Shown in pieces: positions 37,412 to 42,989 of a stretch of DNA of 64,000 nt. Numbering within the stretch: position 1 is the stretch's first letter; every line of letters starts with the position of its first letter. The stretch lies in the NCBI GenBank assembly GCA_016794585.1, contig JAEUJM010000014.1, forward strand, positions 1 through 64,000, read 5' to 3'. This DNA is from Acidimicrobiales bacterium (lineage in GTDB: Bacteria > Actinomycetota > Acidimicrobiia > Acidimicrobiales > DATDAH01). Under the pieces are notes generated by a model, which ran no database searches, had not been told where the DNA came from, and saw only the letters and a program-made list of their open reading frames with translations. Position numbers and translations under genes: made by a program.

Positions 37412-38449
37412 GTGGCCGACGAGGAGGCGCCTGCCGAGGACGAGCAGCCGAGCGGGCTGAAGGCGACCTACCTGCACCGCCGTGCCCAGGTCGAAGAGCT
37501 CCTCGAGCTGGCCGCCACCACGGCGTGGGCGCCGGTCGTGCTCGCCCGCGAGGCCTACCAGCGCGACCGGGACATCGGCGGCGCCGTGCTCGCCGGCGCC
37601 ATCGCCTTCCGGGTCTTCGTCTGGCTGCTGGCCGCCTCGCTCGTCGCCGTCGCCGGCCTCGGCTTCGCCGCCGCCGCAGGCGAGGACTCCGGCGAGGTCA
37701 GCACCAACCTCGGGGTGACGGCGTTCGCGGCCAGCTCGGTGGCCAAGGCCGCCAACGACGTCCAGCGCAGCCGGTGGATCCTGTTGGGCCTCGGCCTCTG
37801 GGCCCTGTACTCGGCCAGCAAGCACGCGCTGCGATCGATGTGGGTGACGAGCGCGCTCGTGTGGCGAGTGCCGATGACCAAGCCCCCGACGGTCGCCGGC
37901 GTGGCCGGGTACAACGTCGTGTTCCTGGGCATGGTGGCAACCACGGCGGTCGCGAACCGCCTCCGCGACCTGCTGCCCGGACCAGGGCTGGTCATCACCC
38001 TCGCCGTGGTGCTGATCTTCGGCCTGCTGATGTGGGCCGGCCTCCTGGGCCTCCCCCGACCGAACCTCCCGTACACGGCGGTCCTCCCGGGCGCCACGGT
38101 CCTGGCCCTCGGCCTCCAAGCCATGCACCTGATCTCACTGTTCTGGCTCCCCCACGCGGTCGAGAGCTCTTCGGAGACGTACGGCACCATGGGGATCGCG
38201 GTCGCCATGCTCCTGTGGCTCTACTTCTACGGGCGCCTCGTCGTGTTCGCCGGGGTCCTCAACGCCACGCTGTGGGAGCGCTACAACGAAGCCGGCGACG
38301 CGCCCGACCTGGTGGGCGCCGGCGCCGACCCAGTGATGGCAGCGGGCCTCGCCGCGCTCACCGACCTCCGGGAGCGGGCCCGCACCCGGAGGGAGCGAAA
38401 GGCCGAGGCGACGAGGGCGTCCGCCGCCGAGGAGGACCCGGGACCCTAG
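37412..38449 (+). CDS. YihY/BrkB-family membrane protein
   Basis: The 345-residue protein has six hydrophobic segments between residues 55 and 290 and family features such as RDRDIGGAVLAGAIAFRVF, SRWILLGLGLWALYSASKHALR and a final YFYGRLVVFAGVLNATLWERY. The YihY family is of unsettled function (once annotated as RNase BN). Both tails are charged and cytoplasmic. GACACT lies 6 nt before the GTG. Its TAG overlaps the stop of the convergent KstR-like gene within one CTAG palindrome. Confidence 0.85.
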   Translation: MADEEAPAEDEQPSGLKATYLHRRAQVEELLELAATTAWAPVVLAREAYQRDRDIGGAVLAGAIAFRVFVWLLAASLVAVAGLGFAAAAGEDSGEVSTNLGVTAFAASSVAKAANDVQRSRWILLGLGLWALYSASKHALRSMWVTSALVWRVPMTKPPTVAGVAGYNVVFLGMVATTAVANRLRDLLPGPGLVITLAVVLIFGLLMWAGLLGLPRPNLPYTAVLPGATVLALGLQAMHLISLFWLPHAVESSSETYGTMGIAVAMLLWLYFYGRLVVFAGVLNATLWERYNEAGDAPDLVGAGADPVMAAGLAALTDLRERARTRRERKAEATRASAAEEDPGP

Positions 38450-39042
38450 GCCTCGTGGGGCTCGATCAACAGGCGGGCGGCGAGCTCGAGCTCGTCGCCG
38501 ACCTTACCGATGCCGGACCAGCCGTTGACCCACCCCACGAGTGCGGCGTACCAGATCCACCCGAGCATGCGGACGATGCCGGCACGGGTGTCGACGTCGA
38601 AGTCGTCGGGGAAGGCCCGGTCCTGGATGCGGGCCATGGTCGTGCCGACCACCTGCTGGCACTCGATCACCTTCGGGTCGGCGGCGGCCAGCGCGGTGAT
38701 CACCGCCTCGCTGAGCTTCGGCTCGCGCTCCATGGCGCGGGTGGCCCGCCGCAGGATGTCGACCATGCGGTCGGCGGTGGTGGCCCCCGTCGGCGGCCGC
38801 CGGGCGATCTGGCCCTCGAGGTCCTCGACCCACTCGACCAGCGCCTCGGCGAGGACGTGGTCCTTGGACGAGTAGTACCGGTAGATGGTGCCCAGCGCGA
38901 CGTCGCTGCGCGCCGAGAGGTCGCGCATCTGCACGGCGTCGTAGCCGCCGCCGGCGCCGAGGTCGATGGCCGCGCCGATGACCCGGCGACGGCGCTCGGC
39001 CTGGCTCTTGCTGAGGGCGGTGCCCGGTTCGACCGTGGTCAC
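38446..39042 (-). CDS. KstR-like TetR-family transcriptional repressor
   Basis: The 198-residue regulator closely follows KstR of mycobacteria by eye. The N-terminal helix-turn-helix region reads RRRRVIGAAIDLGAGGGYD then AVQMRDL, DVALGTIYRYYSSKDHVL, and the ligand domain contains AMEREPKLSEAVITAL, IWYAALVGWVNGW and a final ELAARLLIEP. KstR represses cholesterol-degradation genes and is released by a steroid-CoA intermediate. A perfect KstR box lies at 32470. The KstR identity is based on remembered sequence similarity. TAGCCT stands 7 nt before the GTG. No KstR box is visible at its own promoter. Confidence 0.82.
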   Translation of the reverse strand: MTTVEPGTALSKSQAERRRRVIGAAIDLGAGGGYDAVQMRDLSARSDVALGTIYRYYSSKDHVLAEALVEWVEDLEGQIARRPPTGATTADRMVDILRRATRAMEREPKLSEAVITALAAADPKVIECQQVVGTTMARIQDRAFPDDFDVDTRAGIVRMLGWIWYAALVGWVNGWSGIGKVGDELELAARLLIEPHEA

Positions 39043-39490: not shown

Positions 39491-40807
39491 TCAGGTGGAG
39501 GTGGCGGGGGCGTGCTCGGTCAGCGCGTCGTCGTCGGCGAGGCCGTCGGCCACGATCGTGCCCTCGGTGACCGAGCCCTCGCCGCTGCCCTCGAGGCCCC
39601 GCAGCCAGTCGCGGTGGACACCGTCGAGGAAGCGCTCGACGCCCTCGATCACCGGCGCGGTGCGGGGTGACACGAAGATGTCGAACGCGTGCTGGGCACC
39701 GTGGAGCTCGGCGTAGACGACCGGCTGGGTCGAGGTCGCCCGCAGGCGCTCGACGAAGAGCCGGGCGTCCTCGAGCGGGGCGAGCGTGTCGCGGTCGCCG
39801 TGGATCACGAAGAAGGGCGGGGCGTCGGCCCGGACGCAGTCGATGGGTGAGGCCTTCGCGAACTTCTCGGGGTCGTCGGCCAGGTAGGCCTTCATCACGT
39901 AGGGCTCGATGAACATCGGGAGGAAGCCCTTGGTCTGGGTCTTCAGCCGATCGGTGAAGTCGTAGACGCCGTAGAACGGCACGGCCGCCTGCACGGACGT
40001 GTCGGCGTCCTCGAAGCCCGGCTGGTACTCGGGGTCGCCCATGGTGAGGGCCATCAGCGCGGTGAGGTGGCCGCCGGCCGAGCCCCCGGTGACCGCGATG
40101 AAGTCGGGGTCGATGCCGTACTCGTCGGCGTGCTCGCGGATCCACGCCAGCGCGGCCTTGAGGTCGATGAGGTGGTCCGGGAAGGTGGCCGCCGGGCTGA
40201 GGCGGTAGTTCACGTTGAAGCCGACCCAGCCGTTGGCGGCGAGGTGGCCGAGGAGAGGGATGCCCTGCTCGCGCTTGTCGCCGATGACCCAGCCGCCGCC
40301 GTGGATCTGCATGATCGCGGGGCGCATCTTGCCGGCGGCGCCTTCCTCACGCGGCAGGAAGACGTCGAGCTTCAGCGTGCGGCCCCCCGCCCGGCGGTAG
40401 ACCACGTCCTTGATGACCCGCGCCTCGGGGCGGCGGAACAGGAAGGGGACGAACACGTGGCGGCGGGGCACCCGGGGGGCGCCGTCGTGGTCGTCGACGA
40501 GCTCCTCCATGGCGTCGCGCACGGTGACCGCGGCCCGCCGGCCCCGCACCACGAGGACCCAGAGCCCGACCCAGGAGAGGAAGGTGAGGCCCAGCGCCAC
40601 CCAGCCCGGCCAGGCGTCGAGGGCGCCCGTGTAGATGAAGAACAGCGTGGCGAGCGCCTGCCAGACCAGGTGGTGCCCGGCCAGCTCGATGGTCATCCAC
40701 GAGGCGAAGAACGTGGGCACCAGCAGCACGCGGTTGTTGGTCGGGAGGAAGGCGTTGACGGTGAAGGCGAACCCGACGACGCTCACGAGCAGAAAGAGCC
40801 ACGACAC
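39491..40807 (-). CDS. Membrane-anchored alpha/beta hydrolase (HSL/LipO-like esterase)
   Basis: The 438-residue protein has three transmembrane helices in its first 90 residues, then a hormone-sensitive-lipase-type domain with HGGGWVIGD (oxyanion), GGSAGGHLTAL (nucleophile Ser), HGDRDTLAP (acid) and a His in HGAQHAFD. Layout and motifs resemble mycobacterial LipM/LipO-like carboxylesterases. It should hydrolyse short- or medium-chain lipid esters at the membrane. It is divergent from a wax ester synthase gene, suggesting linked synthesis and breakdown of neutral lipids. Confidence 0.87.
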   Translation of the reverse strand: MSWLFLLVSVVGFAFTVNAFLPTNNRVLLVPTFFASWMTIELAGHHLVWQALATLFFIYTGALDAWPGWVALGLTFLSWVGLWVLVVRGRRAAVTVRDAMEELVDDHDGAPRVPRRHVFVPFLFRRPEARVIKDVVYRRAGGRTLKLDVFLPREEGAAGKMRPAIMQIHGGGWVIGDKREQGIPLLGHLAANGWVGFNVNYRLSPAATFPDHLIDLKAALAWIREHADEYGIDPDFIAVTGGSAGGHLTALMALTMGDPEYQPGFEDADTSVQAAVPFYGVYDFTDRLKTQTKGFLPMFIEPYVMKAYLADDPEKFAKASPIDCVRADAPPFFVIHGDRDTLAPLEDARLFVERLRATSTQPVVYAELHGAQHAFDIFVSPRTAPVIEGVERFLDGVHRDWLRGLEGSGEGSVTEGTIVADGLADDDALTEHAPATST

Positions 40808-40824
40808 GCCTCTATTGTGCCAGC
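40808..40824. promoter_or_regulatory. 17-bp bidirectional promoter with overlapping -10 elements
   Basis: Only 17 bp lie between the two GTG starts (40807 minus, 40825 plus). The plus strand has TATTGT (40813-40818) and the minus strand CACAAT (40819-40814); each is followed by exactly 6 nt before its GTG. The first bases of the two start codons are 18 bp apart. This is the geometry expected for a symmetrical -10 that fires both ways and gives two leaderless mRNAs. Confidence 0.65.
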
Positions 40825-42225
40825 GTGCAGCGACTGTCCGGACTCGACGCGACCTTCCTCTACCTCGAGACGCCGACGCTGCACATGCACGTCGCCATGA
40901 CCGCGGTGTTCGACCCCTCGACCATGCCCGGGGGCTACTCCTTCGAGAAGGTGAAGGAGTTCATCGGCAACCGGGTCCATCTGATCCCGCCGTTCCACCA
41001 GCGCCTCGTCGAGGTGCCGTTCCGGCTCAACCACCCCCTGTGGGTCAAGGACCCGGAGTTCGACCTCGACTACCACGTTCGGCGCATCGGGGCGCCGTCG
41101 CCGGGCGGCCCCGCCGAGCTGGGCAAGGTCGCCGGGCAGATCGCCAGCACCCCGCTCGACCGCAGCCGCCCGCTCTGGGAGGCCTGGGTCGTGGAGGGCC
41201 TCGCCGACGACAACGTCGCGCTGGTGGCCAAGGTGCACCACTGCGGCGTCGACGGCAGCGCCGGTGCGCAGTTCATGGTGCACCTCTTCGACCTCGAGCC
41301 CGACGCCGAGGGTCCCGACGGCCCCACGCCCATCGAGACCGAATCCGTCCCCTCCGACGGCGAGTTGATGTACCACGCCGCCGCCTCGCGCATGCGCCAG
41401 CGGCTCAACATCGTCCCGCTCGTGGGCAAGACCCTTTCCTCGGCCGCCTCGCTGATCGCCTCGCGGAACAGCGCCGACCGGCCCTCGGGCGCCCTGCCCC
41501 TCACCGCGCCCGCGACGCCGTTCAACGCCGCCATCTCCTCCAAGCGCAACGTGGCCTTCAGCCGGGTGCAGCTCGCCGACATGAAGGCCATCAAGAACGC
41601 CGCCGACGCCACGGTGAACGACGTCGTGCTCGCCATCTGCTCGGGCACCCTGCGCCGCTACCTCGAGTCGCGCGACGCCCTGCCCGACACGCCGCTGCTC
41701 GCGGTGTGCCCCGTCGCGGTCACGCCCGATGAAAAGGCCGGCAGCAGCGCCAACTCGGTGTCGGCCATGTTCACCTCGCTGGCGTCGGACATCGCCGACC
41801 CGGCCCTGCGCCTGGCGGTGATCTCCGAGAACACGAAGGGCGCCAAGGAGGACCACAACGCCATCGGCGCCGACATGCTCCAGGGCTGGACCGAGTTCGC
41901 GGCGCCGAACACCTTCGCCCTCGCCGCCCGGCTGTACTCGTCGATGAACCTGGCGGACCGGCACCGGCCCATTCACAACCTGGTGATCTCGAACGTGCCC
42001 GGCCCGCCGTTCCCGCTCTACTTCGCGGGCGCCGAGCTCCAGGCCGCCTACCCCATGGGGCCGGTCATGGAGGGCGCCGGGCTCAACATCACGGTGATGA
42101 GCTACCGGGACTCGGTCGACTTCGGCTTCATGGTCTGCGACGAGCTTCTGCCCGACGTGTGGGACCTCGCCGACTGCGTCGAGCCCGCCTTCCAGGAGCT
42201 GTACGAGGCCGTCGTCGGCCGCTGA
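40825..42225 (+). CDS. Wax ester synthase/diacylglycerol acyltransferase (WS/DGAT)
   Basis: The 466-residue acyltransferase begins MQRLSGLDATFLYLE and carries the catalytic HHxxxDG motif as VHHCGVDGSAG near residue 143. The C-terminal VISNVPGPPFPLYFAGA and ITVMSYRDSVDFGFMVCDE are family blocks. It makes triacylglycerol or wax esters from acyl-CoA for storage. Length agrees with the mycobacterial Tgs family. The start is fixed by the 17-bp divergent promoter. Confidence 0.93.
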   Translation: MQRLSGLDATFLYLETPTLHMHVAMTAVFDPSTMPGGYSFEKVKEFIGNRVHLIPPFHQRLVEVPFRLNHPLWVKDPEFDLDYHVRRIGAPSPGGPAELGKVAGQIASTPLDRSRPLWEAWVVEGLADDNVALVAKVHHCGVDGSAGAQFMVHLFDLEPDAEGPDGPTPIETESVPSDGELMYHAAASRMRQRLNIVPLVGKTLSSAASLIASRNSADRPSGALPLTAPATPFNAAISSKRNVAFSRVQLADMKAIKNAADATVNDVVLAICSGTLRRYLESRDALPDTPLLAVCPVAVTPDEKAGSSANSVSAMFTSLASDIADPALRLAVISENTKGAKEDHNAIGADMLQGWTEFAAPNTFALAARLYSSMNLADRHRPIHNLVISNVPGPPFPLYFAGAELQAAYPMGPVMEGAGLNITVMSYRDSVDFGFMVCDELLPDVWDLADCVEPAFQELYEAVVGR

Positions 42226-42338: not shown

Positions 42339-42393
42339 TTGACGGGCGCCCGCTCGCCTGTCATTCTCCGAACAGTGTCAGGAACTACTAACA
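42339..42393 (+). promoter_or_regulatory. Promoter and candidate operator of the TetR gene
   Basis: TTGACG (42339-42344), a 17-bp spacer and CATTCT (42362-42367) form a sigma70-type promoter. Transcription should begin at about the GTG at 42375. TGTCAG-N6-CTAACA (42376-42393) is an 18-bp imperfect palindrome lying over the first codons; it would suit autorepression by the encoded TetR protein. Confidence 0.55.
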
Positions 42394-42989
42394 GTCCTCG
42401 GATTGCAGCACGCCGTCAGGCGACGCGCGCCGAGATCCTGGCCGCGGCCTGGACACTGGCCCAGGAGCAGGGCCTGGCCGGCCTGTCGCTACGCGAGCTG
42501 GGCAACCGCGTCGGAATGCGGGCCCAGTCGCTCTACGGCTACTTCGGCTCGAAGAACGACATCTACGACGCGATGTTCGCCGACGGCTGGCGCGCCCTGC
42601 TGGCTGAGGGCATCTGGCCGGGCCCCGAGGCTCCCGTCGACCGGGAGCGGTTCAAGGCGGGGGCGCGCCAGTTCGTGGCGTTCTGCCTCGCCGACCCGGT
42701 GCGTTTCCAACTCCTGTTCCAACGCACGATCCCCGGCTTCGAGCCGTCGGCCGAGTCCTACGCCGTGGCCCTGGAGGTGCTCACGGGTGTCGAACGCGCG
42801 TCGGCCGCGCTCGGCATCACCGACCCGGCCCACCTCGATCTCCAGACCGCCCTGATCAGCGGTCTGATCTCGCAGCAGATCGCCAACGACCCCGGCGGCG
42901 ACCGATGGGTGCGCCTTCTCGACGAGGCCCTCGACATGTACCTCGACCACGTCCTCACCGACGACCGACCCGACAGGAACGCCTCATGA
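42375..42989 (+). CDS. TetR-family regulator
   Basis: The 204-residue protein has the TetR helix-turn-helix at residues 12-60 (ATRAEILAAAWTLAQEQG, LSLRELGNRVGMRAQSLYGYFGSKNDIYDAMF) and a TetR_C-type ligand domain (FVAFCLADPVRFQLLFQRTIPGF). It overlaps the mycothiol-dependent enzyme gene by 4 bp, so it probably regulates that small operon in response to an unknown ligand. GTG 42375 is favoured because the promoter leaves no leader; the longer frame would start within the -35 box. Confidence 0.88.
   Translation: MSGTTNSPRIAARRQATRAEILAAAWTLAQEQGLAGLSLRELGNRVGMRAQSLYGYFGSKNDIYDAMFADGWRALLAEGIWPGPEAPVDRERFKAGARQFVAFCLADPVRFQLLFQRTIPGFEPSAESYAVALEVLTGVERASAALGITDPAHLDLQTALISGLISQQIANDPGGDRWVRLLDEALDMYLDHVLTDDRPDRNAS

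Follow-up and report, generated by a model that had tools for sequence, protein, structure and literature searches.

Bidirectional promoters of bacteria are defined by transcription starts on both strands that lie 7-25 bp apart, typically 18 bp. Work on symmetric bacterial promoters has concentrated on Escherichia coli and Salmonella, in which leaderless mRNAs are uncommon. The commonest spacing of bidirectional promoters is 18 bp, and the small variation around it arises from the variable distance between the -10 element and the transcription start (PMC12825309). It has also been reported that in E. coli the two directions do not compete at basal activity, and that repression of one direction is seen only when the other is strongly activated (PMC12825309). 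With respect to leaderless genes, the passages of PMC3898074 considered here mention closely juxtaposed divergent promoters and the leaderless prpD/Rv1129c pair, and give no 18-bp class. In a literature search that covered few subscription journals, divergent leaderless genes with an 18-bp spacing were not found described.

The window analyzed here, a stretch of 64,000 nucleotides from an Acidimicrobiales bacterium, holds a divergent gene pair whose arrangement corresponds to this geometry (Table 1). The plus strand between 40805 and 40827 reads CACGCCTCTATTGTGCCAGCGTG, and the first bases of the two GTG start codons, at 40825 for the WS/DGAT gene and at 40807 for the esterase gene, are 18 bp apart. 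A40814 occupies position -11 of the plus promoter and is paired with -7 of the minus promoter, while T40818 occupies -7 of the plus promoter and is paired with -11 of the minus promoter, so that -11A and -7T coincide on opposite strands as in a symmetric promoter. The original prediction had described two GTGs 18 bp apart, with TATTGT and CACAAT overlapping by five bases and each lying 6 nt from its start codon, and this layout proved exact to the base. As a single stretch of five bases forms both -10 cores at 18 bp, the two sides count as one observation and not as two.

Each side shows the arrangement of a leaderless gene: 6 nt separate the -10 element from the start codon, and no Shine-Dalgarno sequence stands at usable spacing before either GTG. 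No TANNNT other than TATTGT is present in the 250 bp upstream of either start, and a search for operator-like inverted repeats at the site was negative. A scan with the sigma-70 consensus gave no match, although such a scan is uninformative for promoters like this one.

Table 1. Coordinates of the gene pair and of the predicted promoter features between its start codons
Feature	Position	Strand	Details
WS/DGAT-family wax ester synthase/diacylglycerol acyltransferase	40825..42225	+	466 aa, GTG start; TIGR02946, PF03007, PF06974
Alpha/beta-hydrolase esterase (BD-FAE, LipQ-like)	39491..40807	-	438 aa, GTG start, hydrophobic N-terminus; PF20434
Intergenic region between start codons	40808..40824		17 bp, entire gap
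Predicted -10 element TATTGT, WS/DGAT gene	40813..40818	+	6 nt, then GTG
Predicted -10 element CACAAT, esterase gene	40814..40819 (read 40819-40814)	-	6 nt, then GTG
Symmetric core ATTGT/ACAAT (ANNNT), common to both -10 elements	40814..40818	both	five bases
TGG, candidate extended -10 (TGN), esterase side	40820..40822	-	weak; not kept in orthologs

The identity of both genes, originally named a wax ester synthase and a membrane esterase, is borne out at the family level by profile matches. The synthase scores 508 bits against TIGR02946 (curated cut-off 310) and its translation holds the active site HHxxxDG as HHCGVDG. The esterase belongs to the BD-FAE/hormone-sensitive-lipase-type alpha/beta hydrolases (PF20434, 161.7 bits, cut-off 26.8), with HGGG present as IHGGGW and GxSxG as GGSAGG. 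Its best NCBIfam match is LipQ (NF052354), at 294.6 bits and below the cut-off of 700, and it is best described as a LipQ-like esterase of BD-FAE fold. Neither open frame has a start codon further upstream than its GTG, and both GTGs agree with orthologous N-termini; in the case of the synthase, VQRLSGLDAT aligns with the M-E/Q-RLSGLDA of most divergent orthologs. The pair is flanked on both sides by genes for TetR-family regulators (38446-39042 on the minus strand and 42339-42989 on the plus strand), the first of which is KstR-like with 150 bits, below the cut-off of 280. Among named relatives of the esterase, the nearest (58-63% identity) come from Myxococcota/Deltaproteobacteria MAGs, and relatives from within the order are no closer to it. 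No divergent WS/DGAT gene was detected beside the esterase in these MAGs, and a gene transfer is possible.

The leaderless signature was examined in 2.04 Mb of the window's genome (72% G+C), with starts picked by coding signal only. Among the 1066 starts with at least 50 bp upstream, ANNNT is found at spacer 6 in 169, compared to 6-30 (mean about 18) at the background spacers 0-5 and 11-24; the corresponding figures for TANNNT are 91 of the 1066 and about one. Leaderless-like ANNNT-6-RTG starts are thus common in this genome.

The same signature is conserved before the esterase gene, which was detected in 112 of 397 genomes of this order. Where the start is clear, ANNNT stands at spacer 6 in 39/73 orthologs (40/74 counting the window), against 0-10 at every other spacer. 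Three of these 39 share the CACAAT of the esterase side in the window. The base at -12 is C in 20, G in 13 and A in six, and in none of them T, which may point to a weak promoter or to another sigma factor. Unlike in these orthologs, T occupies -12 in about half of the spacer-6 ANNNT starts of the window's genome. Of the relatives inspected, 31 carry WS/DGAT divergent beside the esterase. Its starts look leaderless at gaps of up to 74 bp between the two genes, and at gaps of about 90 bp and above they are mostly Shine-Dalgarno-like. In five of the six other short-gap relatives, ANNNT lies at spacer 6 or 7 before WS/DGAT.

Both sides of the site rank at the 12th-14th percentile among the leaderless-like starts of the genome. 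Position -12 is T on the plus side and C on the minus side, and neither side has a consensus -35. T at -18, a frequent but not defining feature of symmetric promoters, is replaced by C on both sides, since both genes start with GTG and +1 is therefore G. With low scores, no -12T on the minus side, no -18T and no consensus -35, the label "textbook" given to this promoter at first was too strong. Judged by these features, it is a plausible promoter but not a strong one, and the WS/DGAT direction (TANNNT) is more likely to be favored than the esterase direction (VANNNT).

The frequency of the 18-bp distance was surveyed in 2.26 Mb of the same genome, which were gene-called in pieces by a simple caller. 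There are 330 divergent pairs in these pieces, and four of them are exactly 18 bp apart, all four with the shared core; these were called with starts chosen without promoter information. The other distances between 10 and 60 bp hold 0.86 pairs each on average, and 51 bp also holds four. Because some pieces had been picked for containing matches to the pattern, the genome-wide estimate was based instead on the whole-genome list of matches to CAYN6ANNNTN6RTG. About 50 of these 54 matches were inspected, and five correspond to real divergent gene pairs, one of which came in addition to the four with motif-aware starts: the pair of the window, a DnaJ-domain protein with a DUF983 protein, a HAD hydrolase with a pyridine nucleotide-disulphide oxidoreductase, a GDT1 antiporter with a methyltransferase, and an NAD-dependent epimerase with a Zincin_2 metallopeptidase. 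From neighboring distances, about 0.6 such core pairs would be expected, giving Poisson probabilities (approximate, owing to the simple gene caller) of about 0.0005 with the window's pair included and about 0.004 when it is left out.

Raw pattern counts were tried as evidence and rejected, since most of what they record is CAY triplets that fall by chance close to leaderless starts. CAYN6ANNNTN6RTG is not enriched, with its 54 matches against 76 for the reversed control, and TANNNT-6-RTG preceded by CAY matches 19 times at 18 bp, 20 times at 21 bp and seven times at 15 bp in this genome. For this reason, only evidence at the level of genes separates the real cases. Other close arrangements were also called in the 2.26 Mb. 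In four divergent pairs, which may be real or an artefact of the simple caller, the start codons overlap as CATG (distance -1). When motif-aware starts are used, the two pairs at 23 bp, a spacing likewise published for bidirectional promoters, look leaderless in either direction.

The Zincin_2/epimerase pair offers the strongest support for an 18-bp symmetric class. Its intergenic region recurrently reads CAY..GCATSGTAGG..RTG across 30 family-representative loci, with GCATSGTAGG as a symmetric core. The distance between start codons is 18 bp in five and 19 bp in eight of these loci (13/30), with both frames open. A pattern for the 18-bp form of this promoter matches in 36 of 198 genomes, compared to one for the reversed control, and in genomes taken one per family, 8/12 matches abut a Zincin_2 gene by coordinates.

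According to these data, we consider that the 17 bp between the two GTGs constitute a single bidirectional promoter that would give two leaderless mRNAs, with a probability of roughly 0.8. As had been originally proposed, the site is best read as a pair of leaderless starts placed about a single symmetric -10, and the distance of 18 bp agrees with PMC10268837 and PMC12825309. RNA polymerase would bind the common A-T core in either orientation and melt it, and transcription would start 7 bp downstream of the core, at the G of GTG on each strand. The ribosome would then read each mRNA directly, without a Shine-Dalgarno site. The -11A of one -10 is base-paired with the -7T of the other, a geometry from which the spacing of 18 bp would follow, and leaderless starts would fix the start codons too. 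Transcription would proceed in both directions, with steric exclusion between two polymerases and little coupling at basal activity. We regard the site as a real and probably functional symmetric leaderless promoter, belonging to a class that recurs in this lineage.

It could be argued that a real leaderless promoter serves the esterase only, that WS/DGAT is transcribed with an ordinary leader from inside the esterase coding region, and that the TATTGT of the plus strand is a by-product of the esterase -10. In favor of this, it is the -10 of the esterase that is widely conserved, and in relatives with a wide gap WS/DGAT mostly carries a Shine-Dalgarno-like leader. Against this, the WS/DGAT GTG has neither a Shine-Dalgarno sequence nor a second TANNNT in the 250 bp upstream, TATTGT is closer to the common TANNNT than the esterase element is, and other short-gap relatives also hold ANNNT before WS/DGAT at spacer 6 or 7, and this explanation is improbable. 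It is also improbable that the spacing is a coincidence, in which a deletion brought two ordinary leaderless promoters together and 18 bp is one distance of many. Relatives with the same genes at 27, about 26, 65, 74 bp and larger distances fit this idea, as do the four pairs at 51 bp in the gene-called sample. However, 18 bp is the distance at which one core serves both sides, core pairs exceed the number expected at this distance even when the window is left out, and the Zincin_2/epimerase pair keeps 18-19 bp across many families.

The original prediction also tied the promoter to the making and breaking of neutral lipid. The most similar esterase ortholog with a divergent WS/DGAT lies 27 bp from it, and none of the orthologous pairs inspected in relatives has the 18-bp spacing, which within this set is unique to the window's genome; the proposed coupling or mutual exclusion is consequently not conserved. 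Divergent synthase-esterase pairs are also found in Amycolatopsis, Nocardioides and Rhodococcus at 37 bp or more, a distribution indicating that the pair is old in Actinobacteria. Being old and present at other distances, it does not need a shared promoter for whatever joins these genes. Coupling or exclusion of lipid synthesis and breakdown at the promoter of the window itself is possible. The further claim that the promoter is a switch selected for mutual exclusion may draw on the wide conservation of the divergent pair and on the fact that one core cannot hold two polymerases (PMC12825309), but it is unlikely. The 18 bp are not kept for these genes, the other four 18-bp pairs join apparently unrelated functions, the site lacks an operator-like inverted repeat, and the absence of competition at basal activity was established on tested E. 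coli promoters (PMC12825309).

We give even odds to a broader proposal, in which leaderless translation and -10 symmetry together form a distinct minimal unit, with divergent start codons locked 18-19 bp apart, each being the +1 of the same -10. If this is true, any leaderless promoter would be a ready promoter for an RTG-starting frame on the opposite strand, so gene pairs could be captured in this way, and some of them, like Zincin_2/epimerase, would have been kept over a whole bacterial order. As the geometry would fix the start codons in high-GC bacteria rich in leaderless genes, coding pairs that share one -10 could be found from the genome sequence alone. This makes the influence of promoter symmetry on gene order testable with existing transcript maps, and would provide conserved natural examples for the study of polymerase competition.

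Among described systems, the bidirectional promoters of Warman et al. 2021, as related in PMC10268837 and PMC12825309, share with the window the reciprocal -11A/-7T, the 18 bp and a polymerase that uses one core in two orientations. In contrast to them, the starts of the window are predicted leaderless GTGs, such that the geometry would fix the gene starts too; its predicted +1 is G, and it lacks the usual -18T. Regarding gene content, a TAG synthase gene also adjoins a LipQ-type esterase gene in M. tuberculosis (Rv2484c and LipQ, Rv2485c; PMC10699116), on one strand as indicated by the c suffixes, whereas the genes are divergent in the window and in many Actinobacteria. The leaderless mRNAs of M. 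tuberculosis (PMC3898074) resemble those predicted here in having TANNNT some 7 bp ahead of the start codon, using both ATG and GTG and not requiring a -35; what distinguishes the window is that one -10 would be common to two leaderless genes.
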